Below are positions 10,684 through 38,064 of a stretch of 64,000 nt of DNA, piece by piece. Location: positions 9,486,001 through 9,550,000 of the forward strand of contig NZ_CP011533.1 in assembly GCF_001704275.1 (NCBI RefSeq), in the 5' to 3' direction. Under the pieces are notes generated by a model. The model was not told the origin of the DNA. It did no database searches and saw only the letters and a list, made by a program, of their open reading frames with translations. Source of the stretch: Streptomyces noursei ATCC 11455. GTDB lineage: Bacteria > Actinomycetota > Actinomycetes > Streptomycetales > Streptomycetaceae. The position numbers and the translations under genes were made by a program. Each line of letters begins with the position of its first letter. Position 1 is the stretch's first letter.

Positions 10684-10788
10684 AGAGTGTAGGAACTCAC
10701 ATGATCGCGCAGCCCCGTGCCTGCACCCGCGTCCGACTCCTCACACACCGCCTATCCGCGCACGCTGTTGACGGCGGCCTCCGTAAGC

Positions 10789-18081: not shown

Positions 18082-18184
18082 AGCGACATCCTTCCCGCCC
18101 GCCCCACAGGGCAAGCCACTTTGGATGTCACCCGATCGTGCATCAGACCCTCAAGGGAAATGAGCTTGTGGGTAACCTTCCTGG

Positions 18185-18619: not shown

Positions 18620-18764
18620 GTTGGGCTCCTGTCCTCCGTCAGGGTGGCTTTTTGAGGTATGCGTGTTACGGGATGAGGAAAAACCTTCTGGCCGGTGGAG
18701 AACAGGGGGCTCGCGGTGCGTTTCATGCTTTTTCACCGAGATTGACCAACCCCGAGATCCGGTT

Positions 18765-19343: not shown

Positions 19344-20178
19344 GCGGTTTCTCCTCGTGTCGGCTTCAGGGGGAACGGAGATAGAAGTCGCCCGACTCTG
19401 TCCACGGTGACGCCCGCAACCCGTCAGGATGGTTCACGGATGACGTTCCAGTTGCCGGCTCTGATGTGGTGATGCAGGATGAAGCTGCTAAGTCAACATT
19501 GGCTGCTGCAGGCCATCTCCACCCTTAGTCGCCTTGGGGGCGGGCTACTTCCGCCAGGTGGGACTCCGTAACCAACATCACCAGAAATGCTAATGGATAG
19601 CGATCTGTATTACATCGGTGACGCGGGTGTGTCGACGCGAAAGTCACTTCACGGATTGGTCGCACTCTCCGGAAGGTGTCCGCGCCGGCCTGAGCCGCCA
19701 CATATCAGCGAGGACAGCGACATGGCCAAACCGCTCGGCACCGGCGCACCACTTGCGATCGTCACCGCATCGAAGCAGGTAACCCCACTACGTCCAACGT
19801 CAGGGACCGTACTGCCTGGGCTATCACGGCGCATCGACGTGAGCAACCGGGCAGACAAGGCGCGGGCTGGTCCCGGGCCTCCCACAGCGTCACATCCAGC
19901 ATGCTGCACAGTGGACGAGTGCCTGCCGCCTTGTCGCCGTCACAGCACTATGCCGATAGACCTTCGCGTCCCACATGAAGGGCACCACGCGATTGGACTT
20001 ACTGCCGCCGAGTTGCGCGCCGCACCATCCCGTGCCTCAGAACCGTCACGGAACACAGCGGAGACGCGATCCCGGCACAATGCAGCCCGTGCGCCCCAGA
20101 TCGGACTGCTCGGTCTGGCTCAAGTCCGATAGGGCCTGGTGCGGCGCACGCTGTGCCTCTGATCCGTTGGAGGTTTTC
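19344..20178. other. No recognised gene
   Basis: An open frame of 181 codons at 19587-20132 (plus) has no recognisable domain and no convincing ribosome site. The stretch may hold the divergent promoter region between the XRE gene and the rightward genes. Confidence 0.4.
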
Positions 20179-20925
20179 ATGCCGTCTTCCCCCATACACC
20201 GTCGCCGCCCAAGGCGACGTTGGCACCAGCCTTGTGGGCCCGGGAACATCGAATCCTGTATTGCCGATGCCCTGGCGACCTGGGATAACGCTGCTCTGCA
20301 CTGGTCCGCGGTCGAGGACCAACTTGCGCATTGTGCTATCACCGCGCTGCGAAATTGGTGCCGCGACGGCAGCATTTACACGCGTGTGCGACGAGCATCT
20401 CGAAAACGCTTGCACCTGACTGGCGAGCAACTGTCCGACTCTGAAAGGCTGGACGAGCTCATCGGTACCATCGTCGCCGTATCCTTGCACCACTTTCGTC
20501 GCACGGCGCTCAACGACGCGGGATGGCCTCCGCGACACCACATCGACGTGCTTGCCCATTTCCTTGGGCACTGCCTGCTGACGTTCCCATCGGAACACCA
20601 ACGCTGGGTCCGCACGGAGTTTCCCTCAAACGCCCCACCCATCGTGCCGCTCCACCACGCGGTGAATATCCCTGCCTCTGACCCGATGAGCCGACCTGCG
20701 GATCTGGCCATCGCCCTTAGCGGCCTTCACCGTTCGACGACCCCCCTGTGGGCATGGTCTTGCAGTTGCTTCCCGTGGACTTCGAACAAGCCGACAGATG
20801 ATCGTGCAACGGCTGTCGGATCCTGGCAGATATCCCTGGCCCAGGACCATGCGCAGGGACATGCCGCCTGGATGCATCTGTTGGGATCACCATGGCCAGG
20901 TCACGACCTTCCGCATCCGCAATAG
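20179..20925 (+). CDS. Hypothetical protein, sigma-like helical family
   Basis: ATG 20179 is preceded by TTGGAGG at good spacing and opens a 248-residue frame. The central part (DELIGTIVAVSLHHFRRTAL, HIDVLAHFLGHCLLTFPSEH) resembles actinobacterial plasmid proteins with a degenerate sigma-70 region-2-like fold. Those proteins normally continue into a helix-turn-helix; here the last 70 residues are only weakly similar and a frameshift near 20740 is possible. Assignment is tentative. Confidence 0.45.
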   Translation: MPSSPIHRRRPRRRWHQPCGPGNIESCIADALATWDNAALHWSAVEDQLAHCAITALRNWCRDGSIYTRVRRASRKRLHLTGEQLSDSERLDELIGTIVAVSLHHFRRTALNDAGWPPRHHIDVLAHFLGHCLLTFPSEHQRWVRTEFPSNAPPIVPLHHAVNIPASDPMSRPADLAIALSGLHRSTTPLWAWSCSCFPWTSNKPTDDRATAVGSWQISLAQDHAQGHAAWMHLLGSPWPGHDLPHPQ

Positions 20926-20976
20926 CTCTCACTGCAACATGCGCTGCCGATCATCCCTTAGACGGAGGCATGACCG

Positions 20977-21333
20977 ATGGCTTCTTCCGTTACGGCAAAT
21001 CCGCTCACTCGCCTACAACTACATCCTACGGTCCGCCAACCGAAAATCCTCGCACCCTACCTCGAAGAGGCTGAACACGGTCCATCATCGATTGCCGGTA
21101 CGTCCGGCTGCTGCCAATTCCTTCAAGTCAGGGCAGGGCGTGCCGCCTTCGTGACCTCTACTGGGTGCACGATCGAGCATGACAGAGGATCCCCTCGCCG
21201 CGGCGCCACGAACCGCGACGCATCCGCGGCCGAACCTCGTGCCTGCCCTGCCTTCCAACACGCCCAAGGCCACAACCTTCGCCAGACACGGAAACGGGAT
21301 GTTGTGACGTGGGGGGGAGCCGGTCAGCGTTGA
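20977..21333 (+). CDS. Hypothetical protein
   Basis: ATG 20977 follows ACGGAGGC and opens 118 codons beginning MASSVTANPLTRLQLHPTVR. An overlapping 35-codon frame from ATG 20970 uses the same ribosome site. Neither has a recognised domain. It is listed because the ribosome site is good, but it may not be a gene. Confidence 0.25.
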   Translation: MASSVTANPLTRLQLHPTVRQPKILAPYLEEAEHGPSSIAGTSGCCQFLQVRAGRAAFVTSTGCTIEHDRGSPRRGATNRDASAAEPRACPAFQHAQGHNLRQTRKRDVVTWGGAGQR

Positions 21334-21554
21334 GGGCCACCTCGCTGTGTTTTCCGCAGCAACCCAGCCGAGTCTTCCCCTCCAACCGCCCAAGAGCCGC
21401 TGGCAAGGCAGGCCCGGGGGCTCCCTCCGCCAGCACCTCGCCTTCGACTTTGGGCGTCCGACCACGTGGGTTTCGCTGTGCCACCCTCCACTTCGACGCC
21501 ACTGCCACGCACAGCGGTCAGATGCTCAGGCAGCGTCCACTCGCCTGCGATCAG

Positions 21555-21695
21555 GCAACCTCTTTCATCCTGTCCCGGGAGGGTGATGAGTCACCGCGGC
21601 TCCTAGAAAGTGCTGGCATCCTCCCAGGCCAGCAGCTCGGCTACCCCGCAGCCGACCAAGTCGCTGACCTGCGGGTACGGAGGATGAAGAGACTC
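21555..21695. mobile_element. Probable MITE with IS5-A-like ends
   Basis: The left side reads AACCTCTTTCATCCTG and the right side GGAGGATGAAGAGACTC, an imperfect inverted pair like the IS5-A/D ends about 140 bp apart. There is no coding capacity and no clear target duplication, so it may be decayed. Confidence 0.5.
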
Positions 21696-21728
21696 AGGAA
21701 GTCCCGTAGCCAAGAAAGGAACACTGTC

Positions 21729-22172
21729 GTGCCAGGGAACCCCGAAGCAGCACGCGCGTGTGGTGATCACGTATCGCAGAACGCATCACATCTCGATGTG
21801 GCTCTCGCAAGGCACAGTGGTCGTTGGGCGTTCCTCGCGATAGCGCTCAGGCACGCCCAACAATCCAGGTGCCGCTACCGTGTTGGCGCAGTCCTGGTCA
21901 AAGGCGGCCGGGTTCTGGCCCACGCCTGCAACAGGTACCGGAACTCTCCTGGGATCGACTTCCACCACGCCACCTTCCACGCGGAGGAGGTGCTGCTGCG
22001 CAGAGCACGGTGCCCCCGCGGGGCCGTGGTTTATGTCGCCCGCGTCAGCGCAACCGGTGCTCCCCGTATGGCACGCCCGTGCCCACGATGCCAAGGCGTT
22101 CTCGCTACTGGCGGCGTCATCCGGGCCCACTACACCACGCCCGCAGGTCCGGGCGCCCTGCGGCTCAACTGA
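21729..22172 (+). CDS. Cytidine/deoxycytidylate deaminase-family protein
   Basis: A GTG at 21729, preceded by AAAGGA, starts a 147-residue protein. It has the zinc-dependent deaminase signature: HAEEVLLRRA with the proton-shuttling Glu and first zinc ligand, and PCPRCQGVL with the two cysteine ligands. RYRVGAVLVKGGRVLA fits the substrate-binding strand. Family members act on cytidine, dCMP or tRNA bases. It is followed 38 bp later by a tRNA-like gene, so a nucleotide-scavenging or RNA-directed role are both possible. Confidence 0.8.
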   Translation: MPGNPEAARACGDHVSQNASHLDVALARHSGRWAFLAIALRHAQQSRCRYRVGAVLVKGGRVLAHACNRYRNSPGIDFHHATFHAEEVLLRRARCPRGAVVYVARVSATGAPRMARPCPRCQGVLATGGVIRAHYTTPAGPGALRLN

Positions 22173-22210
22173 GCCACAAGACCCGTGCCCATCAGCCGGC
22201 TCGAAGGTTT

Positions 22211-22286
22211 GGGGCATTAGCTCAGCCGGTGAGAGCAGGGATCCAGAATCCTCCGGTCGCGGATTCGAATCCCGCATGCCCCGCCA
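22211..22286 (+). tRNA. tRNA-like gene with defective anticodon arm
   Basis: The acceptor stem GGGGCAT/ATGCCCC and D stem GCTC/GAGC are perfect, and CCA is encoded at 22284-22286. The T arm has one A-C mismatch. The anticodon arm is one base shorter than in the tRNA at 25503 and pairs best as GGAT/ATCC around a five-base loop CCAGA, without the usual U33. It is either a decayed tRNA or a non-decoding tRNA mimic. No reliable anticodon can be given. Confidence 0.6.
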
Positions 22287-22680
22287 GGAACGTGCATCGC
22301 CAGACATTTTGCTCTCACCGAGAGGCTCTCTTGCCTAGGCTCCAGAGAGGACACTGATCACAGTGCACCAGGCCACCCCCATGACAGGCCCGGCCGACAG
22401 GGCCCGCCCCTTCTGGGGAACCAACAGGCTCCAGACACCGCAGTGGTCACCGCCTCACGAAAGCCGCAGCGCGCATACGGACTACGACGCCCCACGCATC
22501 GCTCTGGGCGTGGTACCCAGACTCAAAGTTGCCGGCACCTTCTCGTCCCACGGGCGATATCTACGCATCAACCTCCGGTGGGGTCCACACGGCAGCGTTC
22601 CATGTCGCTCCTCAATGCCTCGCCTACTGAGGCCAGAAGACCCCATCACCACCTCACTGAGGAGCGCTGCTACAGACACT
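22287..22680. other. No recognised gene
   Basis: A very long plus frame spans 22363-24375 but it is antisense or out of frame to better candidates and has no recognisable domain. Nothing specific is visible before the MITE at 22681. Confidence 0.45.
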
Positions 22681-22818
22681 GAGCCTCTTCAGCTTGGTCA
22701 TGCAGGAGTGGCAGGAGCCCCGGGAGTTGACTCAGCTCTGATCTCGGGATTTGAGCCCTCAGCTAGCCGGTTTCTTTACTCTGTCGTCACTCGTTCGGTG
22801 GCCGAGGTGAAGAAGCTC
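22681..22818. mobile_element. MITE with GAGCCTCTTCAGCTTGG ends
   Basis: The 138-bp element has ends GAGCCTCTTCAGCTTGG and the inverse of GAGCTTCTTCACCTCGG, flanked by ACT at 22678-22680 and 22819-22821. It lacks coding capacity. A second copy at 55768-57311 is split by an ISAs1 element. Confidence 0.85.
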
Positions 22819-22948
22819 ACTTCCCCCTGCACCCGAACACCTGCTGTCCAAACAGTGTCCGCGCTTTTGGGGCAAGAACTGGTTGTGCCGCCCTCAGTCA
22901 CGCCATGCCAGAGCAACCGATTCCAACAGGATGTATCCAGGAGTGGCC

Positions 22949-23554
22949 ATGGAGCGGTACTGCATAATCTGCACGACCGCGCCCACGAGCAGCGACGACA
23001 CCAGCATTTGCTTGGGATGCCAGCGCCGTCTTCGCGGTGCGCTCAACCGGTTTCCCCAGTTGTACGTCCAACTGTACGTCGAACTTCCCCGTGTCCCCCG
23101 CGGCAGCCTCAACCAGCCCCCCATTCGCACGCCTTGGAAGAGCAGGGAGAAAACCACGCCCTTGCGTCTGCCACTGCTGGACCATGCCCAGCGCTGCATC
23201 GATGTCCTGCGGGCGTGGGCCGCTTATGCGATACCCGACCTGGTGCCGGAGGAAGCCGTTCGGCCTGGCCGTCTCTTCCAAGACCTGTGCTACGCATTGG
23301 CCGCGGACCTGCCCACAGCCGTCACGAGCGTAGAGGGCGGGAGGCACGCCGACCGTACGTGGACGGCCTACATTGTTGCTCGCAGACTGCTGGGCGAGGC
23401 CGACCTCGCTCGTCAACTGTCGACTCCTTGCCCGAACTGCCAGATGCGCGCATTGCTGTCCATCGACAACTACATCGTGATCTGCCGAAGTTGCCGTGCC
23501 CACTGGCCGACCGAAACATGGCACGCCGCCACATGTCCCGGGCACATAGCGTGA
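22949..23554 (+). CDS. Zinc-ribbon protein of unknown function
   Basis: ATG 22949, with CCAGGAG seven bases upstream, opens a 201-residue protein. It has an N-terminal cysteine pair set (MERYCIICTTAPTS, then SICLGCQRRL) and a C-terminal set (TPCPNCQMRALL, then IVICRSCRAHW), each able to bind zinc. The middle is helical. The architecture resembles small paired-zinc-ribbon proteins common on Streptomyces plasmids and phages. No enzymatic motif is visible; nucleic-acid binding is a reasonable guess. Confidence 0.65.
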   Translation: MERYCIICTTAPTSSDDTSICLGCQRRLRGALNRFPQLYVQLYVELPRVPRGSLNQPPIRTPWKSREKTTPLRLPLLDHAQRCIDVLRAWAAYAIPDLVPEEAVRPGRLFQDLCYALAADLPTAVTSVEGGRHADRTWTAYIVARRLLGEADLARQLSTPCPNCQMRALLSIDNYIVICRSCRAHWPTETWHAATCPGHIA

Positions 23555-24335
23555 GTGGTTTCAGGATGTTGCTGGACTCCCGGGCCCTGGGACAACAAGC
23601 CTTCCCTGCCCGCAGGGCCCACGTGCTGGGGCGACGAGTCGGTAGGGCTGTCCGCGGCCAATTGGCGGGGCCACCCCTTGGAACACATCGTCGCAACCGA
23701 GTCGATTCCGGGACCGTTCACTTCTGGTCTCCGCCCGGAAGACGCCACCAGCATCTGAAACCGACTTGGTACCGCAACAGTACCAGCCATCACGCAGCCT
23801 CCCCGGCCATGAGTACTTCAGGCTCGGACAAACCAACAGCCGGATCCTGTTTCCCTTCCTTCGGCTTGTCAGCCAGGGGGGAGCCGGCGACTAGCGTGCT
23901 GCGACAGGGGAGACTTGTCCCTGTGGGCCATCGATACCGAGAACGGGGGGCCTGGATAGGGGAAGTGCTTGCCTCCAGCTCACCCAGGGCAGGCAAGCTG
24001 CAGCCGAGAGACAACCAGACTGCCCCTCTTCACCCCGGCCTAGAGTCGTCACTGCCCGAACACACCATTTTAGCCGACGGCAGTCTCAGGTTCCCTTCGG
24101 CGAAATCCTACTTCGTACTCGCGCTGGCGCCGCACCGATACCTGGGATCACATCTTCCTGCTGCCCCAACTCCGCAGTACAAAACAAGGAAGGCATGGGC
24201 GTCCATGTGCCAGGGCGGCCCGGCGCCGGATCCTGGCCGGCGGGGTGCGGGGGAGTGGCAGCGAAGCAGCCTGATGGCAGGCAGAGCTTACTTTTTCGAT
24301 TGGCCCTTGTGGGCCGCGATCAGTCAGGAGCCGAA
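23555..24335. other. No recognised gene
   Basis: Only shadow frames occur on both strands. A promoter for the following membrane protein presumably lies near its end, but none can be assigned from sequence alone. Confidence 0.4.
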
Positions 24336-24947
24336 ATGCGTCACTGTCATGGAAACCCCCAGCCTCCACAGGTAACCCGGCACAGGCCAGGTGGGTACTT
24401 TCCCCAGCTCGACTGGCCAAGTACCACGTTGCTTCTCCTTCTTGTGGCGTTGTACCTGCTCAAGGAGCGTGGCGAACGATGCGCTGAACGTGTAGTGCAA
24501 GGGAGCTCCACCTTCTTCGCCGGCGTGGTACGTCTACCTCTCAGGTCCCGTGCAAATGCAGAGAGCGGAGCACACACACCGGACGCGGTGACAAGCAGTG
24601 GCGAGGGGACATCGAACGCGCCGGCAGCGGACTCTCCTGTCATGAGCAGGCACATAAGCAGTGAGCATGTACAGACGCAGCCCCTCCCAGAGTTTCCTGG
24701 TGAAGCATGCTTTGGCCCAGGCACGTCGAACGTCTGGGTACTGATGCTGAGGTTGCGGTTGGTGGCCCGTGGCTACGCAGAAGAGCAAAAGACGCGACTG
24801 GCAAACGACCCCGACTTGCACGCCTCCAGCGAGTGGGACGAAGACCTGCGGGTCTGCTGCACTCTCTTCCAACTGGACCACGGACTGCGCGGCAGCGAAG
24901 CAACCGGATACCCCACCGCACGCACCTGGCAGTTGCTATGGGCGTGA
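24336..24947 (+). CDS. Membrane-anchored protein, peptidoglycan-binding-like C-terminus
   Basis: ATG 24336 is preceded by TCAGGAG at ideal spacing. The 203-residue product has one membrane segment (STTLLLLLVALYLL, near residue 30), a polar linker and a C-terminal domain (WVLMLRLRLVARGYAEEQKT, DEDLRVCCTLFQLDHGL, GYPTARTWQLLW) resembling peptidoglycan-binding-type repeats. It would sit in the membrane with the domain possibly facing the wall. The last ten bases overlap the WhiB-like gene, so the two are probably translated together. Confidence 0.6.
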   Translation: MRHCHGNPQPPQVTRHRPGGYFPQLDWPSTTLLLLLVALYLLKERGERCAERVVQGSSTFFAGVVRLPLRSRANAESGAHTPDAVTSSGEGTSNAPAADSPVMSRHISSEHVQTQPLPEFPGEACFGPGTSNVWVLMLRLRLVARGYAEEQKTRLANDPDLHASSEWDEDLRVCCTLFQLDHGLRGSEATGYPTARTWQLLWA

Positions 24948-25333
24948 CATCGGCGTGGGAACGCACCGCACGGACACGACGGCGTGACGACTCAGGAGGT
25001 GAACTGGACCCACAGTGGTGGATTCAGGCGCGATGCAAGCGACTGGAGTCTGACCTCTTCTTCGACTCCCGGCGGGAAACAGAAGCCCTGGAAGTGTGTA
25101 AGCCGTGCTCCGTGCGGACCGAGTGCCTGGCACAAGCATTGGACAAACGCACGGAATATGGAGTGTTCGGGGGCACGACCGCACTGTGGCGCAAGCAATT
25201 GTTGCTACGTCGTGCAGATGTAACGTCGTGGCACGCCTTCTTGAGCAAGGCACGTGCGAGGCACCGTCACCAACAACTGAGGCGATTCATAAACTTCAAG
25301 AACTCCCTGCACCATGCCCGCTCCTTGAGCTGA
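24938..25333 (+). CDS. WhiB-like regulator
   Basis: The 131-residue protein has the WhiB iron-sulfur motif C-x20-C-x2-C-x5-C (ARC, CKPC, TEC) and the turn GVFGGTT, where most members have GVWGG. WhiB-like proteins carry a [4Fe-4S] cluster and partner the primary sigma factor; in Streptomyces they control development and stress. The C-terminal tail is rich in Arg and His as in DNA-binding members. The start ATG 24938 lies within the preceding gene, and tRNA-Leu begins 16 bp after its stop. Confidence 0.88.
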   Translation: MGVTSAWERTARTRRRDDSGGELDPQWWIQARCKRLESDLFFDSRRETEALEVCKPCSVRTECLAQALDKRTEYGVFGGTTALWRKQLLLRRADVTSWHAFLSKARARHRHQQLRRFINFKNSLHHARSLS

Positions 25334-25349
25334 GCGACAAAATGCGTAA

Positions 25350-25433
25350 GGGCGAGTGGCGAAACAGGCAAACGCAGTGGACTTAAAATCCACCGCCCCC
25401 TGGGGCTTGTGGGTTCGAATCCCACCTCGCTCA
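25350..25433 (+). tRNA. tRNA-Leu (anticodon UAA), bldA-type
   Basis: This is a class II tRNA with a long variable arm. Acceptor GGGCGAG/CTCGCTC pairs with one G-U, D stem GCG/CGC, anticodon stem GTGGA/TCCAC, variable stem GCCCC/GGGGC and T stem GTGGG/CCCAC all pair. Loop CTTAAAA gives anticodon TAA at 25384-25386, which reads UUA. CCA is not encoded. In Streptomyces the UUA-reading tRNA is the developmental regulator bldA, and this looks like an extra, divergent copy in accessory DNA. Confidence 0.93.
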
Positions 25434-25502
25434 CGGGCCACGCCAGCTATCGCGTTGGCAAGTACGCCCTCATCGATCGACGCCGAGCATCCAACCCATC
25501 AT

Positions 25503-25576
25503 GAGGTGTTAGCTCAGCTGGTCAGAGCAGGGGACTCATAATCCTCCGGTCGCAGGTTCAAGTCCTGCACACCTCA
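25503..25576 (+). tRNA. tRNA with CAU anticodon (Met, or Ile2)
   Basis: Acceptor GAGGTGT/ACACCTC, D stem GCTC/GAGC, anticodon stem GGGGA/TCCTC (one G-U) and T stem GCAGG/CCTGC all pair. Loop CTCATAA gives anticodon CAT. The acceptor begins with a paired G, so it is not an initiator by that criterion. It could be elongator Met, or an Ile tRNA needing lysidine modification. CCA is not encoded. Confidence 0.9.
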
Positions 25577-25615
25577 CGAGCACCGGCCACGGACCGAAGG
25601 AGCGAACCTCTCACT

Positions 25616-25711
25616 AAGCCTCTTTCATCCTCCGCTCGATGCAACGCACAAACCACCTCTCAAAGACGGAAACACCGCCGCCCCTCATCCCCAGAGACCG
25701 AGGATGAGGCT
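25616..25711. mobile_element. MITE, 96 bp
   Basis: The ends are AAGCCTCTTTCATCCTC and the inverse of AGCCTCATCCTC, flanked by ACT at 25613-25615 and 25712-25714. The ends resemble those of IS5-A/D, so its movement was probably catalysed by that family. Confidence 0.75.
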
Positions 25712-25749
25712 ACTCAGTCCGTGGCTGCCTGCAAGCGCAGCGTCGTGCA

Positions 25750-25788
25750 AGCTTCCATCCTCTACACGCTGTTTAGAAGATGGAAGCT
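25750..25788. terminator. Hairpin of uncertain role
   Basis: A ten-base stem AGCTTCCATC/GATGGAAGCT encloses a loop of 19 bases. It lies between the tRNA genes and the aldo/keto-reductase-like gene. It may be a terminator or remnant terminal repeats of a small element; no T-run follows. Confidence 0.4.
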
Positions 25789-25898
25789 CAGCGCAGATGA
25801 GCTCACATGAGTGCAGCAACACATTGCTGCATCCATGAGAGAGAACAGAGAAGGAAACCTTCTAAAAGGTTTGCTGGCACCCATCCGAAAGGCATCTG

Positions 25899-26855
25899 AT
25901 GGTAGATTCGCTAGCTGCATTCTCAGACCGAACAGGCCTGGTCCCGGCACGCCGTTGCGGACGCAGCGGCCTTCACCTTCCGGCAGTCTCCTTGGCTCTG
26001 CGCAGGCACAACAACGCCTGGGGACACGCCGCCATGTTGCTACGGCAAGCTTTAGAGGTAGGCGTGACACACGTGGATATCGCGCCACCCTTCGGCGGGC
26101 CTGCAGCGATAGAAGAGCTCAGAAATGCCCTACACACCGTGCGTTTTCGAAGAGAGGAAGTAACGGTATCACTGCAGGTAGGCATCGGGACGCCCGGCCC
26201 CTTGTACGGCTTCGGCTCTCGCCAACGCGTGCTGTCGACGCTGGACGCCGTTCTGCAACGCACCGGACTGAACTTCGTCGACGTTCTGTACGCGCACCGG
26301 TTCGACCCAACAACCCCATTAGAAGAGACCGCCCAGGCCCTTGCATGGGCGGTTCAGCAGGGCAAGGCACTGTACGTCGGGCTCTCGGGATTCGCTCCGG
26401 CCGTACTACGGAAGTTGCTACCCCTCATGGAAGAACACGGAGCACGGGTAGTGGCGTGCCAGGTGGACTACTCCCTGCTGGATCGGTGGGCTGAAGACGG
26501 CGTCTTCGGATTGCTGGAACACTATGGCGTGGGGTGCGTAGCTACGAATCCGCTGGCTGGAGGAGACCTCGCTGTAACAGTTCCAGGCAGACCAGATGAC
26601 CTGCAGATGCGTGAGGCCCTCACCCCTATCAGACACCAACTGACACGGGTAGCCGCTAAGAGGCAGCAAACACTGCCACAGATGGCGCTGAGCTGGTCCC
26701 TCAAAGACCCAAGAATCACCTCGGTGGCAGTGGAGGCGACGTCATGGAACGAGATGGAGGACTACTGCGCAGCAAGCCACACCACATACTTCGACCCAGA
26801 GGAACAAGCCACACTCAACACCATCTGCGAGGCAAAAGACGGGTTAGCCCGATGA
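25899..26855 (+). CDS. Aldo/keto-reductase-like protein lacking catalytic Tyr and Lys
   Basis: The 318-residue protein is a TIM-barrel aldo/keto reductase of the YghZ/Kv-beta type, started at ATG 25899 after GAAAGG. The catalytic tetrad is incomplete: Asp is present in HVDIAPPFG, but the Tyr expected near the end of that motif is Phe, and the Lys expected in VTVSLQVG is Gln; His is present in LYAHRFD. Oxidoreductase activity is therefore doubtful, and a binding or regulatory role is possible. The gene has TTA codons at 26052, 26319 and 26844, and its stop overlaps the next start as ATGA. Confidence 0.85.
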   Translation: MVDSLAAFSDRTGLVPARRCGRSGLHLPAVSLALRRHNNAWGHAAMLLRQALEVGVTHVDIAPPFGGPAAIEELRNALHTVRFRREEVTVSLQVGIGTPGPLYGFGSRQRVLSTLDAVLQRTGLNFVDVLYAHRFDPTTPLEETAQALAWAVQQGKALYVGLSGFAPAVLRKLLPLMEEHGARVVACQVDYSLLDRWAEDGVFGLLEHYGVGCVATNPLAGGDLAVTVPGRPDDLQMREALTPIRHQLTRVAAKRQQTLPQMALSWSLKDPRITSVAVEATSWNEMEDYCAASHTTYFDPEEQATLNTICEAKDGLAR

Positions 26856-27865
26856 TTGGCCCGCTCCGCTGGCCGATCGGTCGAGAAAAGATAACGCGCT
26901 TCCTCGCTGAGACTTACCGCTCCGTGCATGGCAGCAGGAGCCAATGCACATGCCCATCTCCGGCCCCGCGCCGTACGATCATTACCCATGCTGTGTGTCT
27001 GGCGACTATCTTCGCACTGTCCACCGGGCAAGCGGCAGGAGCCATGCCTGTCACAACCACCTCAGCAACTTATCAACCTCGCCGCAGCGCTGCGATCGTC
27101 GGCGGCAGTCAGGCAGGAACTAACCGGTACCCCTTCATGGCTGCGCTCCTGGAGGGGACCGAGCACGACAACCAGCCTTTTTGCGGTGGCACCTTGGTGT
27201 CACCCTCCATCCTTATGACGGCTGCCCACTGCTTCACAGATCTCCAGCAGGATTCGATAAAGATCGCTGTGGGACGCACTGCTCTGTCCAACCCTAGGCA
27301 GGGCCAGATCCGTTCTGTGAGCCTCACGCACGTCGTGATACATCCCGGGTTCGTTCCGAAGACCTTCGCCTTCGACCTAGCGCTGATCGATCTGGGCAGT
27401 CCAGTCAAGGGAATCACTCCCGTGCGCCTGGCCCCGCTTACGAGTCGGCCAGCAGACCGGGCCAGTGGCACCGCGGTGGTCATCGGCTGGGGCACCACAG
27501 TTGACGGAGGCGAACGCGGACCGGACCGACTGCGTGAAGTGAAAGTACCGCTGCAGGGTAATTCCGCCTGCACGAAGGCTTACCCGAAATCCTATAGAGC
27601 CGGGCGGAATATCTGTGCGGGTGCCGTAAACCGGGACTCCTGCCAAGGCGACAGCGGAGGCCCCTTGCTCACAGCGGCCCCCAAAGGCACCTGGGTGCAA
27701 ATCGGGATTGTATCTTACGGGGATGGGTGCGGCCGGGCAGGAAAACCTGGCGCGTACACCGCAGTGGACCCATCCTCGTTATGGACAACCTTGGCAAAGT
27801 CACCCCAGGGCCGCCGCATACTCACCCTGCTAACCCAGAAGCGGATCCTGAATCCACCCCCATGA
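26852..27865 (+). CDS. Secreted trypsin-like serine protease (S1)
   Basis: Starting at ATG 26852, which overlaps the previous stop, the 337-residue protein has a late hydrophobic signal segment (ITHAVCLATIFALSTG) and a mature start at IVGGSQAG. The catalytic triad is clear: His in MTAAHCF, Asp in FDLALIDL and Ser in CQGDSGGPLL. Cysteines match the family's disulfides. IVGG preceded by Arg-rich residues implies zymogen activation by cleavage. One TTA codon lies at 27779. An in-frame start at 26744 would add 36 residues and is less likely. Confidence 0.92.
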   Translation: MIGPLRWPIGREKITRFLAETYRSVHGSRSQCTCPSPAPRRTIITHAVCLATIFALSTGQAAGAMPVTTTSATYQPRRSAAIVGGSQAGTNRYPFMAALLEGTEHDNQPFCGGTLVSPSILMTAAHCFTDLQQDSIKIAVGRTALSNPRQGQIRSVSLTHVVIHPGFVPKTFAFDLALIDLGSPVKGITPVRLAPLTSRPADRASGTAVVIGWGTTVDGGERGPDRLREVKVPLQGNSACTKAYPKSYRAGRNICAGAVNRDSCQGDSGGPLLTAAPKGTWVQIGIVSYGDGCGRAGKPGAYTAVDPSSLWTTLAKSPQGRRILTLLTQKRILNPPP

Positions 27866-28009
27866 GATAGAGCTTTGCGGCCGATACCCGAGTAGCTGAG
27901 ATGCGACCCAAGCCATCCTTCCTGACGCGATCCCGCGAAGCATTAAGCCATCGCCCGCGTGATTCACTCCAAGCAAGAACCCACTAGTTAACCGTCCCAC
28001 GGAGGCTCC
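27866..28009. other. Intergenic region before the LytR-CpsA-Psr gene
   Basis: There is no gene here. The CCCACGGAGGCTCC just before 28010 provides a ribosome site for the ATG at 28010, although a later start for the following gene remains possible. Confidence 0.45.
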
Positions 28010-29647
28010 ATGCTTACAGCACTCACTGTGGCCTGTATTGGCTATGCAGCCAATACAGGCCTGCTCCTATGGAGACTTGCGGGACGCAGCGCCTGGCCCC
28101 TTCCATCGGTCACTGAGAGCTTGCGACCAGGCTCTCGAATATCTGCCTCCGGACTCATAACTGCTTGGCTACTAACGCGCGCACTGTCCCCGGGATGCGC
28201 TGGCCTAGGATTCACCGCCCCGTACGACCCTTGTGGTGATAGAGGGCTAGCACTGCGCGTCTCGAAGCTCACCTACCGAGCACTTGAGGTCGCGAAATTC
28301 CTGAACAACGGTCTACGGCGTCGGCCCCTGGCTGGCGGGGTGGTCGGCGTGCTCCTGCTGGGCACGGCCGGGACCGGCGTGTGGGTGTACCAGCACCTCA
28401 ACGGCAACATCCACGGCGCGGACGTGAACAGCGAACTGGGCGGCGACCGGCCGGTCAACCTCAGCCCCGGCTCCAAGAACATCCTGGTCGTCGGCTCCGA
28501 CAGCCGGGCCGGCACCGGCGGGAAGTACGGCAGCGGCCTGACCACCATGCAGTCGGACACGCTGATGGTGCTGCACATCTCCGCCGACCACAAATGGGCC
28601 ACCGCGGTGTCCTTCCCGCGCGACTCCTGGGTGCCGATCCCCGCGTGCGACAAGGGCGACGGCACGCAGTCCGCCCCGCACCACTTCAAGATCAACGAGG
28701 CGTACACCATCGGTGGCCTCAGCGGAGACGTCGCCAAGGCGGCGGCGTGCAGCATCAAGACCGTCGAGAAGAACACCGGGCTGCGCATCGACCACTTCGT
28801 CTCGGTCGACTTCCAGGGCTTCAAGGGCATGGTCAACGCGCTCGGCGGCATCGAGGTCTGCCCCAAGCACGCCATCCACGACAAGAAGGCCCACCTCGAC
28901 CTGGAGGCCGGCTGCCAGAACATCCAGGACGAGAAGGCGCTCGGCTACGTCCGCACCCGCTACAGCGTCGGCGACGGCTCCGACCTCGGCCGGATCGGCC
29001 GCCAGCAGGAGTTCATGAAGGCGCTGGGCAAGAAGGCGCAGGAGAAACTGACCAGCCCCACCGCTCTCTACGGCTTCCTCGACTCGGCGACCAAGTCGCT
29101 GACCACCGACACGGGCCTGGACAGCATCAACGCGCTCACCAGCCTTGCCTCGACGGTCAAGGACATCCCCTCCGACCGCCTCACCTTCCTCACCGTCCCC
29201 ACCTATCCGCGTGAGGCGGACGTCCCCACCGACAAGGCCAACGTGGTCTGGCAGTATCCGCAGGCCGCCGAGCTGTTCGGCGACCTCGCCCACGACCGGG
29301 AGATCGGCGCCGCCGGGAAGCAGAAGTTCGCCGACGCCCAGAAGAACCCGGTGACCGCACGCTCCGTCCGGGTGCGGGTGCTCAACGGCACCGTCACCAA
29401 GGGCCTCGCCGCGGACGTCGCCCAGAAGCTGCGGCAGCTCGGCTTCACCGTCGTCTTCACCGACAACGGCCCGAGCACCGACACGACCACGGTCAGTTAC
29501 CCGCCCGGCCTCAAGACCCAGGCCGAGGTGCTCGCCGGACGGCTGCCCGGCACCAAGACGAAGGAGTCGGCGCAGGCCGTGCCGGGTGCGGTGACGCTCA
29601 CGATCAGACCGGACCTCTCGGGCTCACTCTCCCATCCTGAGCGTTGA
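28010..29647 (+). CDS. LytR-CpsA-Psr family glycopolymer ligase
   Basis: The 545-residue frame contains a membrane anchor (PLAGGVVGVLLLGTAGTGVW, near residue 106), a LytR-CpsA-Psr domain (NILVVGSDSRAGTGG, DTLMVLHISADHKWATAVSF, PRDSWVPIPAC, DHFVSVDFQGFKGMVNALGG, YVRTRYSVGDGSDLGRIGRQ) and a C-terminal LytR_C domain (SVRVRVLNGTVTKGLAADVA). Such proteins attach polymers to peptidoglycan. The first about 100 residues are unusual and of different base composition from the rest, and a 14-bp dyad lies in them, so the true start may be later or the gene a fusion. Confidence 0.85.
   Translation: MLTALTVACIGYAANTGLLLWRLAGRSAWPLPSVTESLRPGSRISASGLITAWLLTRALSPGCAGLGFTAPYDPCGDRGLALRVSKLTYRALEVAKFLNNGLRRRPLAGGVVGVLLLGTAGTGVWVYQHLNGNIHGADVNSELGGDRPVNLSPGSKNILVVGSDSRAGTGGKYGSGLTTMQSDTLMVLHISADHKWATAVSFPRDSWVPIPACDKGDGTQSAPHHFKINEAYTIGGLSGDVAKAAACSIKTVEKNTGLRIDHFVSVDFQGFKGMVNALGGIEVCPKHAIHDKKAHLDLEAGCQNIQDEKALGYVRTRYSVGDGSDLGRIGRQQEFMKALGKKAQEKLTSPTALYGFLDSATKSLTTDTGLDSINALTSLASTVKDIPSDRLTFLTVPTYPREADVPTDKANVVWQYPQAAELFGDLAHDREIGAAGKQKFADAQKNPVTARSVRVRVLNGTVTKGLAADVAQKLRQLGFTVVFTDNGPSTDTTTVSYPPGLKTQAEVLAGRLPGTKTKESAQAVPGAVTLTIRPDLSGSLSHPER
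28030..28061. promoter_or_regulatory. 14-bp perfect dyad, possible operator
   Basis: GGCCTGTATTGGCT and AGCCAATACAGGCC form a perfect inverted repeat separated by ATGC. It lies 20 bp after the first possible start of the LytR-CpsA-Psr gene. It could be an operator if translation begins further downstream, or an RNA hairpin. Confidence 0.5.
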
Positions 29648-29844
29648 AGTTAGAAGGCTCACGGCCGATTTCCTCTGGAAAGCTCGGAGTGGCGCTATAT
29701 GTAGCCATATGGATGCCCTAAAATTCATCAACCGCCGTTCTTTGGCTCACTGCTATGAGGTAATTAATGCGTGCAGCTTAAGCCTTTGCTGCTTGCCAGC
29801 GCCTCCGTCGATTACAGCTATATGGTGCGAAAGGTCACTGATTT

Positions 29845-31029
29845 ATGTGCGCTTACCGTGATCGCGATTCGTCATTCACGCGCCGCATTTTTTGCAACTT
29901 TCGCTTGATAATGTTGCTTGCGGCGGAGGTAGTGGTATTGGCCGCGTGTTCCCCGGACCTTAAGTCCATTGTTCCAGAACCTGTCGCTATCGTCGCCCCC
30001 GCCGACGGAACTCGGGATGTGAGGCCAGGGGAGCGAGTGTCGGTACAGGTCGCCAATGGGGCACTGACCAGTGTTAGTGTCAGCACTTTGGGCGGCACTC
30101 GAGTCCCCGGAACTCTCAAGGGTGGTCGCTTTTCCCCCGAACGCGAAGGATTCTTAGTCGGGACTACCTATAGGGTTACTGTAAAGGTCACGGGCGGCAG
30201 TGGTCGTGAGAATGTAAGAGTCACCTACTTCACCACTCTAGCTCCGAAGAAAGTCAACAGAATAGATGTCTTACCTAGAAGTAAAACGACCGTAGGAATT
30301 GGCCAGCCCGTCTCTCTGGCTTTTAATCACCCTGTCAAGGATAAAATGGCGGTTGAGCGCAGACTCAAAGTTGCCGATAGTAACAATACTGAAGGGTCGT
30401 GGGGTTGGGTCACCGAACCCATAACTGGCCGTGAACGCGTCGATTGGAGACCCAAGAAGTACTGGGCCCCCGGCACTAAAGTCACCCTCGATGCTGACCT
30501 CAATGGCGTCGACACCGGAAACGGGCGCTATCTCACGCGTTCCTACTCCACTGCCTTCACTATCGGTTCCAGTCATATTGCGAAGGTCGACCTCAATGCC
30601 CACACCCTTACTCTAATCAGCGATAGTCATAGGGTAAAGACCATACCCGTAACCGGCGGCGACGCGAACCATCGAACCTGGAGTGGGAAGATGACACTCA
30701 TGTCGAAAGAAGGCGCCATTCGCATGAGTTCCCAGAGTGTTGGCCTAGGAAATGAGTATGACTTCATGGTGCAGCGCTCCATGCGTATGACCATCTCCGG
30801 AACCTATGCCCACCAGGCCGAGTGGGCCGAGGCAACAATTGGAGCCTCCAATACCAGTCATGGCTGCCTCGGAATGACGACCAAAGACGCCACTTGGTTC
30901 TACGGCCAGGCTCAAGTTGGCGACGTCTTCGAAGTGAGCAATGGCAGAGAGAGCGTAGAGCCTGGTAACGGATTTGGGGAGTGGAACCTGTCCTGGGAAG
31001 ACTGGCAGGGTAGGTCCGCGCTGCACTGA
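29845..31029 (+). CDS. L,D-transpeptidase lipoprotein (YkuD domain)
   Basis: The 394-residue protein begins with a lipoprotein signal (LLAAEVVVLAAC lipobox, Cys near residue 35), followed by two Ig-like regions and a C-terminal YkuD domain. The catalytic motif is ASNTSHGCLGM, with Cys as nucleophile, preceded by YAHQAEW. Such enzymes form 3-3 peptidoglycan cross-links outside the cell. It has two TTA codons (30154 and 30271) and lower GC than typical Streptomyces genes. It lies 197 bp after the LytR-CpsA-Psr gene, same strand. Confidence 0.92.
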   Translation: MCAYRDRDSSFTRRIFCNFRLIMLLAAEVVVLAACSPDLKSIVPEPVAIVAPADGTRDVRPGERVSVQVANGALTSVSVSTLGGTRVPGTLKGGRFSPEREGFLVGTTYRVTVKVTGGSGRENVRVTYFTTLAPKKVNRIDVLPRSKTTVGIGQPVSLAFNHPVKDKMAVERRLKVADSNNTEGSWGWVTEPITGRERVDWRPKKYWAPGTKVTLDADLNGVDTGNGRYLTRSYSTAFTIGSSHIAKVDLNAHTLTLISDSHRVKTIPVTGGDANHRTWSGKMTLMSKEGAIRMSSQSVGLGNEYDFMVQRSMRMTISGTYAHQAEWAEATIGASNTSHGCLGMTTKDATWFYGQAQVGDVFEVSNGRESVEPGNGFGEWNLSWEDWQGRSALH

Positions 31030-33253: not shown

Positions 33254-34056
33254 CTAGACGCCGGCCGTCGAACCCGACGGCGACATCCGTGACGGCGCCT
33301 GGGTCGCCGAACTCGCCGGCGACTGCCTGACGGGCTGGCCGAAGGGGCTGCGGCTGATCGTGCGCAAGGAACGGCCGCACCCCGGCGCCCAGTTGCGCTT
33401 CACCGATGCCGACGGCATGCGGTTGACCTGCTTCGCCACCAACACGGCCGACGAGGCGATCGCCGCCCTTGAACTGCGTCACCGGCAGCGGGCCCGGGCC
33501 GAGGACCGCATCCGCGCCGCCCGCGCCACCGGCCTGCGCAACCTCCCCCTCCACGACACCGCGCAGAACCAGATCTGGCTGGAGATCGTGCAGATCGCCC
33601 TCGACCTGCTGGCCTGGATGCCCCTGCTCGTCCTCAACGGCACCGCCCGGCTCTGGGAGCCCCGCCGCCTGCGGCTTCGACTGTTCTCCACCGCCGCCCA
33701 GTTCATCACCACCGGCCGCCGCCGATACCTCCGCCTCGCCAAGCACTGGCCCTGGACCGACGTAATCACCAACGCCCTGGACCAGCTCCACACCCTCCCG
33801 AACCCAGGCTGACCAGCACCTTCCCATCCCTGCGATCAGCACCAGCCCACCGGAGCCGTGGAACCCGGCGCACACCCGACGCGACAGCCGGGCCACCGAC
33901 CTGCCCATCACCAGCCCGGACAACCGAAACGGCCCGCCGGAGAAACCGACGGACCGTCACGAAAGATCGAGGTTAAAGGTATGGAGCCTCAGGGGTGCTG
34001 GTGGACTTTCCAGAAATCTCCATCCGGTTCTTGGCAGGCACCGTCGCGTAGCAAAG

Positions 34057-34962
34057 GAGGGTTATTCACGTAGGCCTCACCAGCCTCTTGTGTAGAAGGT
34101 GAGGGCGGTGACGGTCTTGACGATGTCGGGGAAGCGGGTGAGGGGGCCGCGGTAGCGGGTGGCGAGAATCTTCCAGTTCTTCAGGTGCGCGATGGCCCGT
34201 TCGACTGCGGCTCGGAGCGTGTTGACGGAGCGGTTGGCTCTCTTGTCTCCGGCGGATCGTTCCTGGCCGGGCGGCTTGCGCCTGGGGGTGAACAGTCGGG
34301 AGCCGGCGTAGCCCAGGTCGCCTATGCCCTCGCGTTCGGCGAATGCCTCGGGGAAGTGGGACTGGCGCCAGGCGTGCATGTCGTGCCGGCTGCCGGGCAC
34401 CGGCGCGGAGACCGCGAGCAGGTCGCCGGCGAGAGTGGCGGCGATCTGCAGGTTGAAGCCGGTGTCGCGGTGCTTGCCGGAGAACATCGTGGTGCCCTCG
34501 CTGGACCAGTCCCACGTCGTGACCAAGGTGCCATCCACGAGTACGATCCGGCCGGCAGAGGCCTCGGTGGGATCGGGAACGTGCGTGGCCAGGACCTTCT
34601 CCACCATCGGCAGCAGGGCCGTCCATCGCCTGGAGACGGTGGCCTGGGAGATCCCGAACAGCTCGGCGGCCACCTCCTGGACTGGGTTCTGCCGCAGCAG
34701 GAACAGCACCAGCACCACCGACTTGTACAGGCCCAGCGCCCACATCCGCCCCGGCATCACCGGTGGGTCCGGATCCTGCACGAGCTCTTGGTGAACTCGT
34801 GCGACCAGCCCGTCAAGTTGCTCGGTGTCCAGTCCTGTCGTAATGTTCCAGCTCAACGGCCCTGCCATGGTGGTTAACTGACGCTCTCTCAAACGTCACG
34901 CTACCGAGCAGGGCCGTCCTCGTGATCAAGAACGATGGTTGAAACCCCCGTGAATAGGCCTC
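34057..34962 (-). mobile_element. IS5-E copy 2, complete
   Basis: The 906-bp element has ends GAGGGTTATTCACG and the inverse of GAGGCCTATTCACG. It is flanked by AAG at 34054-34056 and 34963-34965. Confidence 0.93.
34077..34892 (-). CDS. IS5-E transposase
   Basis: This is the intact 271-residue form of the IS5-E transposase. It contains a helix-turn-helix-like segment (NPVQEVAAELFGISQATVSR), IVLVDGTLVTTWDW with the first catalytic Asp, IGDLGYAGSRL with the second, and RAAVERAIAHLKNWKILATR with the Glu. Compared with copy 1 it retains a G that keeps the last 22 residues in frame, so it is the likely active source. Confidence 0.92.
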   Translation of the reverse strand: MRERQLTTMAGPLSWNITTGLDTEQLDGLVARVHQELVQDPDPPVMPGRMWALGLYKSVVLVLFLLRQNPVQEVAAELFGISQATVSRRWTALLPMVEKVLATHVPDPTEASAGRIVLVDGTLVTTWDWSSEGTTMFSGKHRDTGFNLQIAATLAGDLLAVSAPVPGSRHDMHAWRQSHFPEAFAEREGIGDLGYAGSRLFTPRRKPPGQERSAGDKRANRSVNTLRAAVERAIAHLKNWKILATRYRGPLTRFPDIVKTVTALTFYTRGW

Positions 34963-35047
34963 AAGGTGTTGAGTTCCTGAGTTGCCTTCGATGTGAGCTC
35001 ATCAACCTACTGTCGCTGGATTTGTGGCATACTGCAACCGGCTGACT

Positions 35048-35945
35048 GAACCTCTTTCATCCTGTTCCGGCCGGGTGAAATGGGCTGGTCAGGTGGGGTG
35101 ACATGGCGAAGCCCCTCGTCGTTGGTGTGGTGATCTCACTCAACACGCCATCGGCCGCGGGGGGCTTTGTTGGTTCCGTATCCTTCCATGGTCGACGTCC
35201 CGCACGAGCTGGTCGAGCACGTCTCCTGGCTCATCTACGCCCGAAGGCGTGAACTTCGCTCGGCCTGGCGGAGGTTGAGCTGCTTCAAGCAGGCCCTTCT
35301 GGTTCTGGCACACCTGCGGAAGAACGAGACGTTGGCACAGGTCGGTGCCGGGTTCGGAGTTTCCGAGGCCACCGCGTGGCGGTATGTACACGAGACCGTC
35401 GAAGTCCTCGCCTCGTGGGCGCCGGGACTGCACGAGGCCCTCGTCGGCTTGGGCGAAGGCGACTTCGTCATCCTCGACGGCACGCTCATCCCCACCGACC
35501 GCATCAAGGCCGACGAGCCGTACTACTCGCAGAAACACAAGAAGCATGGCATGAACGTCCAGGTCATCGCACGTCCCGACGGCACACCGCTGTGGTTCTC
35601 ACGGGCAACGCCGGGCCGAACCCACGACCTGACCGCAGCACGCGCCCACGGCATCGTCCAGGCCTGCCTCAGCCGCCAGATCCTCTCGTCCTGGCCGACC
35701 GCGCTTACCAGGGCGCCGGCGCCACTGTCCGCACCCCGTACTACGGCTACCGCGACCTGCCCGAGCACTACCAGCAGTACAACCGCGACCACGCCGGCCT
35801 GCGCGCTCCCGGCGAACGCGCCTTCGCCCGCCTCAAGTCCTGGCGACTGCTGCGGCGAGCGCGCTGCTCAACCAACCGCATCGGCAGGACTGTGGCAGCC
35901 GTGCACACCCTCTTGACCTGCCAATACTCAGGATGAAAGAGGTTC
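35048..35945 (+). mobile_element. IS5-D copy 2
   Basis: Ends GAACCTCTTTCATCCTG at 35048 and the inverse at 35945 are flanked by ACT at 35045-35047 and 35946-35948. It lies in the 3' end of IS3-G orfB. Confidence 0.92.
35167..35936 (+). pseudogene. IS5-D transposase, frameshifted
   Basis: The sequence follows the intact IS5-D transposase to LSRQIL near 35685, where an extra two bases (CTCTCG instead of CTCG) shift the frame. The remainder (VLADRAYQGAGATVRTPYYG onward) is readable in another frame. The second catalytic Asp and the Glu are therefore lost from the product. Confidence 0.9.
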
Positions 35946-36816
35946 ACTGCCTGCAACTCCTCGTACTCGGCGTGGACTTCTGCGGGGGTCTTGTAGCCGA
36001 GTCCGGAGTGGAGGCGTTTTCGATTGTAGAACATCTCGATGTAGCGAACGATCGCTCGGTGGGCATGTGCGAGTGTTGGGAACGTAGTTCGGTGCACGAG
36101 TTCGTTTTTGAGGGCGCCGAAGAAGGATTCAGCCATCGCATTGTCCCAACAGACACCGGTGCGGCCGACCGAAGCTCGCAGGCCCAACGAGCCGAGCTTA
36201 CGACGAAGTTCCCGAGACGTGTATTGACTGCCGCGATCGGAATGAAATATGCAGCCTTCGGCGAGGTCGATGTTCCGGGCCGCCATATCGAGTGCATCCG
36301 ATATGAGAGAGGTCTTCATGTGGTCGGCCATCGCCCAGCCGACCACAGCTTTGGTGTGGCAGTCGATGACGGCTGCGAGATAAAGGAACCCGGCCCAGGT
36401 GTGAACGTAGGTGATATCGCTGACCAGTTTGCGCCCGGGAGCGTCAGCGGTGAAGTCACGGGCCAGAAGGTCTGGCGTGGCCGGCGCCGCATCATCGGCG
36501 ATCGTGGTCGCCCGCCAGGGCCGCGGCTGGCACGGCACCAGACCGAGCTCGCGCATCAGCGCGCGGACCAGTTCTGCTCCGGCCTGCACGTTCATTCGCT
36601 GGAGCGCGGCGTGGACACGCCGGTAGCCGTAGGTCTCCTGCGAGTCAGAGAAGACCTGGAGGATGACGGTCTTCAGTTCTGCACGGCGCTTCGCCGTGGC
36701 CGACAATGGCCTCGATCTCCAATGGTAAAAGCCCGACGTGGACACTCCCGCCCAGGCGCACATCTGCTGCACGGGAAAGTTGTCAGACTCGCCGTCGATG
36801 AACTCGTACTTCTCCG

Positions 36817-37107
36817 TCACCGGTATTCCTGGGCGAAGAAGGCCGCAGCTTTTCCCAGGAACTCGGTCTTCATACGGAGTTCCCGGTTCTCACGTTCCAA
36901 TTCGCGAAGGCGGGCACGTTCGCTGATGTTCAACGGGGGCTCCTCACCGGCGTGCTCTTGCCGGTACCGGCTGACCCAGGTGCCCAGCGTTCCCTCGTTC
37001 ACCTGTATCTCTCGGGCGACCTCAGCGATCGGGCGGGACTCCACAACCACCATCTTGACCGCCTCGTCCCGAAATTCGGGACTGAACTTCCTACGCTTCT
37101 GTGCCAC
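36817..37107 (-). CDS. IS3-G orfA
   Basis: The 96-residue protein MAQKRRKFSPEFRDEAVKMV has an HTH_Tnp_1 domain (IAEVAREIQVNEGTLGTWVS) and a leucine-rich tail (ERARLRELERENRELRMKTE). The stop overlaps the GTG start of orfB, the usual arrangement for a -1 frameshift fusion in IS3 elements. Confidence 0.88.
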   Translation of the reverse strand: MAQKRRKFSPEFRDEAVKMVVVESRPIAEVAREIQVNEGTLGTWVSRYRQEHAGEEPPLNISERARLRELERENRELRMKTEFLGKAAAFFAQEYR

Positions 37108-37177
37108 GTGCTCTCTCCGTCGTTCTGGACTTCGATCCTATGGGGACCGCTGTCCGAGAACTTCGGGGCTCCTCAAG

Positions 37178-38030: not shown

Positions 38031-38064
38031 CTCCGTGACTGGCCGTCGGTTTATGGGGGATGTC

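Follow-up and report, generated by a model that had tools for sequence, protein, structure and literature searches.

A tRNA-Leu(UAA) gene distinct from bldA

Is a leucine tRNA with anticodon UAA that lies in accessory DNA of Streptomyces noursei ATCC 11455 simply the chromosomal bldA, or does this strain hold another reader of the UUA codon and, in that case, what would the DNA around it do with such a tRNA? The question is raised by the gene at positions 25350-25434 (forward strand) of the 64,000-nucleotide stretch analysed here (the window), which corresponds to positions 9486001-9550000 of a single 9815884-base contig, so that the gene lies ~305 kb from the right contig end. PMC2000904 describes bldA as the only UUA reader in S. 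coelicolor, and a table in PMC4932002 gives six Streptomyces genomes with one TAA tRNA gene each. We propose that the window gene is a second tRNA-Leu(UAA) of a non-bldA lineage, carried as cargo by a phage-derived module that has spread via chromosomes and plasmids, and that it may supply UUA (perhaps also AUA) decoding outside bldA control; taken as a whole, we consider this reading about evenly poised between right and wrong.

ARAGORN called the gene as tRNA-Leu with anticodon TAA, and the Rfam model RF00005 gave it 59.3 bits (gathering score 29). As read from the sequence, it has the A73, U33 and long variable arm of a class II leucine tRNA, features that it shares with bldA together with the anticodon, and like bldA it should read UUA. 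An earlier note on this DNA, made from the letters alone, had remarked that the tRNA looked different from the classical bldA and had proposed a comparison with the host gene. This comparison bore the remark out: among the 76 tRNA matches of the host genome, ARAGORN called another Leu(UAA) at 5624905 (locus L042), which is bldA (G000:C1:5624905), lies 3.9 Mb from the window tRNA and is 58% identical to it. When 18 Streptomyces genomes were searched, with up to 40 candidates scored per genome, each of them gave exactly one bldA match, with 92-100% identity to the host bldA, which reaches at most 98-99% identity to bldA of other Streptomyces. Moreover, in a low-resolution FastTree tree of the 85-nt tRNAs, computed without the tRNA of genome G073, the bldA genes formed one group (support 0.993) and the tRNAs of the window type another (0.859). 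The window tRNA also differs from bldA in the anticodon loop, which is CTTAAAA in the former and CTTAAAC in 18/18 bldA genes compared. The window tRNA is not orthologous to the shared chromosomal bldA, nor is bldA the sole UAA tRNA gene of this genome, in which three were found (bldA and two copies of the window type). The idea that it is bldA itself or a recent copy thereof, which the common anticodon and amino acid could favour, was ruled out by the separate bldA locus, the low identity and the separate tree groups, and we regard it as next to impossible. A scan with a BldD consensus (<=2 mismatches) returned nothing near either tRNA and does not separate the two.

The clade of the window tRNA takes in the UAA tRNA of G447, a genome from another genus of the family, in which this gene (C11:270313) is the sole match to the UAA pattern. 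The cargo may thus derive from a chromosomal UAA tRNA such as the one in G447.

A recurring module with phage-type genes

Relatives of the window tRNA were detected in 6 of 392 Streptomyces genomes, its own included (E <= 1e-6), in 4 of 297 genomes of the family (E <= 1e-7) and on three Streptomyces plasmids. The same proteins recurred around them with ~30-70% identity, namely a sigma-factor-like protein, a protein with an endolysin-type domain, a WhiB-like regulator, a deaminase, an aldo/keto-reductase (AKR)-like protein, a zinc-ribbon protein and a MerR-like small protein, which together with a phage-type repressor we call the module (its copies in S. noursei, the cassettes); it is rare. The tRNA was accompanied by at least three module proteins in eight Streptomyces genomes or plasmids: the window genome (two copies), Streptomyces sp. 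NBRC 110611 (L096), S. pathocidini (L086), G284 (L084), G592 (L148), plasmid pSSP121038 of YIM 121038 (L082), a plasmid of WZ-12 (L081) and S. griseocarneus 132 (L098). A partial case, on two short contigs, was found in G167, and the module relatives on plasmids include linear plasmids of 378 kb and 968 kb. The association was also recovered from the side of the zinc-ribbon protein, whose family comprises 12 proteins among 5.8 billion, the window's own counted. Used as starting query, this protein led to three loci and three plasmids, with a UAA tRNA in the fetched DNA of 5/6; in the DNA of one of the three zinc-ribbon places of the Kitasatospora NBC_01519 plasmid, no UAA tRNA was found.

The phage character of the module is apparent from matches to PHROG profiles, obtained in the window for a repressor, the deaminase, the WhiB protein, the AKR-like protein (profile of unknown function) and the endolysin-domain protein, and among the relatives for the sigma-like (weakly), zinc-ribbon and MerR-like proteins. 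In YIM 121038 a holin (3.5e-24) and an endolysin (3.6e-104) come next to the module, and in WZ-12 a tail-sheath gene lies ~13 kb from the UAA tRNA. From these surroundings we read the tRNA genes as passengers of mobile or phage-type DNA, additional to a complete host set, and the placement of the tRNA-Leu(UAA) in accessory DNA by the earlier note has held, with the addition that the tRNA is a repeated part of such a module.

Searches for closer copies gave less. A megablast search against plasmids returned only a tRNA-length match, on two Kitasatospora plasmids, and blastn of positions 22200-27865 against phages returned tRNA-only matches among the matches listed (30 of 289 records), so that neither a close plasmid copy of the whole cassette nor a phage copy was retained as a candidate. 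By tblastn, none of 50,697 phage records matched the zinc-ribbon protein, nor did viral contigs yield a relative of it, despite the two PHROG profile matches. The AKR profile matched one viral contig (L302, 37%), with no tRNA in the 10.7 kb analysed. A 111-kb contig filed as viral (L180) contains a UAA tRNA identical to that of G447, adjoining an open reading frame (ORF) that, judged from its translation, is orotate-phosphoribosyltransferase-like, and gave no AKR match; this record looks like host DNA at a prophage edge.

Covariation and purifying selection

An alignment of nine module tRNAs showed standard pairs in all 180 of the 180 cells formed by 20 stem pairs. Changes on both sides of a pair occurred in four pairs, all in the anticodon stem, a number reached by 1/500 shuffles, which do not preserve relatedness; 14 of 15 other pairs were invariant. 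The cloverleaf has therefore been kept through compensatory changes across the nine relatives, and in this sense the earlier description of the tRNA as well folded stands.

The module proteins also show signs of constraint. Between the two copies in S. noursei, the ratio of nonsynonymous to synonymous substitution rates (dN/dS) was 0.20-0.38 for the zinc-ribbon, repressor, sigma-like and deaminase genes, and for the zinc-ribbon and repressor genes it was 0.19-0.21 against NBRC 110611; these four proteins are under purifying selection. Synonymous change was saturated in the AKR-like gene, for which no ratio was obtained, and the sigma-like frame of the second copy contains one stop.

Two copies of the cassette in one genome

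The stretch 18176-28059 of the window (no strand assigned) is duplicated in the same genome, in pieces that match positions 2018-12813 of locus L031 by blastn. This second cassette, overlooked by the earlier note, lies 48.8 kb downstream and again holds three tRNAs (blastn, ARAGORN). Per 250-nt bin, the two copies are 68-99% identical to the left of ~24.25 kb, 96% identical in the 24250 bin and 100% identical from the 24500 bin to about 28.06 kb, a block of ~3.8 kb that has been homogenised recently. The UAA tRNA is inside the identical block together with a CAU tRNA, and a CAG tRNA-like gene lies in the diverged part.

Codon use in the module genes

The TTA codons that the earlier note had listed in the AKR-like gene (26052, 26319 and 26844), the protease gene (27779) and the L,D-transpeptidase gene (30154 and 30271) are all in frame, and Pfam supports the gene names. 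Codons were then counted in 38 module genes, 38/38 without internal stops, and compared with 44 typical and 75 low-GC3 (G+C content at third codon positions) host ORFs; both host sets were chosen by length and GC3 without annotation, and the low-GC3 set may include false frames. TTA amounted to 25/955 leucine codons (2.6%) in the module genes, against 8/2844 in the typical and 32/3537 in the low-GC3 ORFs (odds ratios 9.5 and 2.9; Fisher p 1.3e-9 and 1.2e-4, respectively). ATA was raised as well, with 46/242 isoleucine codons against 26/859 and 78/618. TTA is the rarest sense codon in typical host ORFs and ATA the seventh rarest. When scaled to the use of A at fourfold degenerate third positions, TTA stood at ~2.5x the host level (0.165 vs 0.064 and 0.065) and CTA at 1.5-2.8x. 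Per locus, TTA ranged from 0/170 leucine codons (S. griseocarneus) to 9/93 (G592). Host avoidance of TTA is relaxed in the module genes, and not that of TTA alone, because CTA rises too.

CAU and CAG tRNAs of the cassette

ARAGORN detected three tRNA genes in the 64 kb of the window, with Rfam in agreement on all of them: CAG at 22211-22286, UAA at 25350-25434 and CAU at 25503-25577, all on the forward strand. The locus is thus not an array of >20 tRNA genes. Both the CAU and the CAG gene had escaped the earlier note. The CAU tRNA has an Ile2-like body, being 76% identical to the host CAU tRNA located beside tRNA-Asn, which by elimination and from gene order we take to be tRNA-Ile2, compared with 66% to the CAU tRNA of a Thr-Met cluster (presumably the elongator tRNA-Met) and 62% to the initiator type. 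tRNA-Ile2 reads AUA once lysidine is made. Being closest to the presumed host Ile2, the CAU tRNA suggests that the cassette probably holds readers of both UUA and AUA. It is found in the module copies of the window genome, G284, S. pathocidini and NBRC 110611, whereas the DNA retrieved around the modules of YIM 121038, WZ-12, S. griseocarneus and G592 gave no CAU tRNA.

The CAG tRNA-like gene, called Leu(CAG) by ARAGORN (22211-22286 and L031 7088-7164), has a body like that of the CAU tRNA, with 78% identity to the presumed host Ile2 and 42% to the host Leu-CAG, and carries C33 and G73. It occupies the position of the CAU tRNA in NBRC 110611. Its stems are intact in L031, and one base of the anticodon stem is missing from the window copy. 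Going by the gene order of NBRC 110611, a leftover UAA tRNA could be expected upstream of the deaminase gene in the window; none was seen there, the local alignment score (23) falling below the mean for shuffled sequences (25). The order UAA tRNA - deaminase - CAU tRNA, present in G284, S. pathocidini and NBRC 110611, is the sole support for the notion that the deaminase might edit C34 of the CAU tRNA to U, which is very improbable, as the best-described relatives of this deaminase are deoxycytidylate (dCMP) deaminases.

Genes of the window

Within the duplicated stretch, a phage-type transcriptional repressor-like gene on the reverse strand (18765-19343; PHROG 20450, E 7.8e-11; no match in a Pfam search) is kept in L031 and NBRC 110611, with dN/dS values of 0.27 and 0.19. 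All further genes described here are on the forward strand. The sigma-factor-like gene (19975-20925) is a weak assignment, having homologues in six other loci; the window protein itself has neither a Pfam nor a PHROG match, and its relative L086:10930-11715 matched Sigma70_r4_2 with E 2.5e-4, below the curated cut-off, and the sigma factor profile PHROG 1740 with E 0.0036. The deoxycytidylate-deaminase-like gene (21309-22172; PF00383, E 4.4e-9; PHROG 174) has its domain in the C-terminal half, and its L148 relative is ~35% identical to dCMP deaminases of Streptomyces phages. The rare zinc-ribbon or DNA-binding-like protein (22952-23554; dN/dS 0.20 and 0.21) has a relative that matches PHROGs 1467 and 1568. 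A protein with an endolysin-type C-terminal domain and uncertain start (24195-24947; PHROG 1493, E 6.4e-4) has homologues in other loci, of which L086:6810-7520 matches PHROG 17214 at 1.2e-12. The WhiB-like regulator (24707-25333; PF02467, E 2.7e-16), whose true start is probably further downstream, ends 16 nt before the UAA tRNA.

Downstream of the tRNAs, the AKR-like gene (25899-26855; PF00248, E 9.2e-43) has three TTA codons, and the gene for a trypsin-like secreted protease (26744-27865, with a likely start near 26852; PF00089, E 3.5e-48) has one. The protease gene is present in both copies of this genome, and among the other compared loci only a distant counterpart, in G284, was found. 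A LytR-CpsA-Psr gene without TTA (28010-29647; PF03816), whose 40% identical relative comes after the AKR gene in NBRC 110611, is perhaps the edge of the module. The L,D-transpeptidase gene with two TTA codons (29845-31029; PF03734) is outside the duplicated stretch, and none of the 13 other loci compared contains a relative of it at E <= 1e-9. Many near-identical copies of insertion sequences (IS) surround the cassettes in both orientations (1419-7010, 34051-38034, 46418-48222, 52248-53168 and 60658-61579).

None of five aligned AKR-like sequences (0/5) has a lysine at the position of the catalytic lysine of YghZ, and the AKR-like module proteins may be non-catalytic or binding proteins. S. 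griseocarneus (L098) has two AKR-like genes in one module copy, at 2291-3385 and 8876-9979.

Other UAA tRNAs in Streptomyces

An extra UAA tRNA of any lineage was confirmed by ARAGORN in 7 of the 392 Streptomyces genomes (G000, which is the window genome, G008, G073, G167, G284, G351 and G390). Two or more matches to the exact UAA pattern, which misses some UAA tRNAs (7 genomes were without any match), occurred in 13/392 genomes; the extra matches of G010, G108, G148, G246 and G279 were not called tRNAs, and that of G020 does not look like one. UAA tRNAs with a different acceptor stem were observed on a 93-kb plasmid of S. platensis (L083 13997-14082), in G390 (L090 9172-9255) and in G073 (L306 1470-1554). 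Those of G390 and the S. platensis plasmid belong to another tree group and another setting, and in G073 a WhiB-like gene lies ~0.5 kb downstream of the tRNA; Streptomyces may thus harbour mobile UAA tRNAs of at least two lines. In G148, the 3' part of bldA is matched a second time (C24:89878, L315), by a sequence that ARAGORN does not call a tRNA and that resembles the attachment-site copy which integration of an element into bldA would leave behind.

Discussion

If the tRNA is indeed cargo of the module, it would be transcribed together with the regulatory genes of the latter, processed and then charged by the host leucyl-tRNA synthetase, and would supply UUA decoding for the AT-richer genes of the element independently of bldA timing, while the CAU tRNA would add AUA decoding upon putative lysidine formation, with a presumable gain in the expression of these genes. 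From the 16-nt spacing in the window, co-transcription of the WhiB gene and the tRNA is likely there; the corresponding gap is 24 nt in S. pathocidini, 58 in G284, 75 in G592 and 184 in YIM 121038.

Several observations weigh against this proposal. The UAA tRNA is not directly behind the WhiB gene in NBRC 110611, WZ-12 and S. griseocarneus, and no sigma-70-like promoter was found in 24700-26000, a consensus that Streptomyces promoters often miss. The module was found in none of the phage or viral-contig records, capsid and tail genes having had no systematic search. For the unmodified RNA, folding by minimum free energy does not give the cloverleaf (z -1.56; 13/200 shuffles fold at least as well), so that "well-folded" does not extend to this calculation. 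The identity of the two tRNA copies was rejected as proof of selection, because both lie in the ~3.8 kb identical block and say nothing in this respect. Regarding codon use, CTA is also raised in the module genes (6.4% vs 0.6% and 3.7% in typical and low-GC3 ORFs), and because CTA and ATA rise alongside, much of the TTA rise can be due to base composition; moreover, the five module genes counted in S. griseocarneus lack TTA altogether although the UAA tRNA is present. As proof of a private pairing of tRNA and codon, the TTA enrichment is weakened accordingly. The earlier suggestion that the tRNA serves the adjacent TTA genes is supported only in part, by the raised TTA use of the module, and the L,D-transpeptidase gene is without a match in the compared loci: the tRNA gene proposed is sound, and the circle of genes served was drawn too wide.

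The same cargo could serve other ends. The element might be a portable bypass of bldA, with its own UUA tRNA behind a WhiB-type regulator putting the UUA genes of the element, perhaps also host adpA and antibiotic regulators, on the schedule of the element, an extension that we find rather doubtful. Less likely still is a developmental override for the benefit of the element, in which the tRNA would act as a regulatory effector and, by boosting UUA decoding, let bldA-dependent host genes (adpA, pathway regulators) be translated early or under different conditions; the tRNA does adjoin WhiB-like and sigma-like regulator genes, this genome has three UAA tRNA genes, and the UUA codon of adpA is, according to PMC4255298, a main cause of the bldA phenotype, with bldA tRNA abundance mattering for AdpA, yet with confirmed extra UAA tRNAs in so few genomes such a host effect would be rare.

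In an anti-defence role, spare leucine and isoleucine tRNAs would take the place of host tRNAs that anticodon nucleases cut when a phage infects or a plasmid enters; PMC12803027 proposes this for the tRNA arrays that mycobacteria carry on large linear plasmids. Such a role would suit the phage-type surroundings and the anticodon stem, which is the variable part of the module tRNA and differs from bldA, but the tRNA genes number no more than two or three, and one of these reads the rarest codon of the host, which makes a poor nuclease target; we deem the role unlikely here. We see as little likelihood in a passive remnant, the leftovers of a dead prophage or plasmid no longer used in an IS-rich chromosome arm, to which the many IS copies around, the adjacent CAG tRNA-like gene with C33 and its lost base, and the stop in the L031 sigma-like frame would point; a true remnant fits badly because of the low dN/dS values, both between copies and against NBRC 110611, and the covariation of a cloverleaf kept in nine relatives.

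Extra tRNA genes on mobile DNA are already known. The mycobacterial arrays (PMC12803027) likewise lie on large linear plasmids or mobile actinobacterial DNA beside a complete chromosomal set, and differ in comprising 26-27 tRNA genes for 19-20 amino acids, whereas here two or three lie within a protein-coding module. Cluster BE Streptomyces phages such as NootNoot (PMC5764925) share tRNA genes and a related dCMP deaminase (~35% identity) with the module, but have dozens of tRNAs; in bases 1-100000 of the 131086 of NootNoot, ARAGORN found no Leu(UAA). The tRNA-Asp-AUC of a desert streptomycete is also an extra tRNA of few Streptomyces (32/4649 genomes), one that alters decoding of a disfavoured codon and antibiotic output; it concerns another amino acid and codon, and its host set lacked the anticodon, whereas here bldA already reads UUA (PMC9262613 for the tRNA-Asp-AUC). 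The module tRNA differs from bldA in turn by being mobile, rare, placed beside phage-type genes and extra to it. Searches of the open-licence PMC literature brought up no description, for Streptomyces, of a mobile second UUA tRNA outside the bldA lineage.

In strains with a second UAA tRNA, UUA translation may not depend on bldA alone, and in strains such as the 7/392 reported here, conclusions on the timing of TTA genes drawn from bldA alone may fail. The module also offers a natural tool for the old question whether timing lies in the bldA gene, in its modification or in the codon, namely a UUA tRNA whose sequence, anticodon loop and surroundings set it apart from bldA. Were the bypass of bldA true, UUA genes would be translated on the schedule of the element and not on the developmental schedule of the host.

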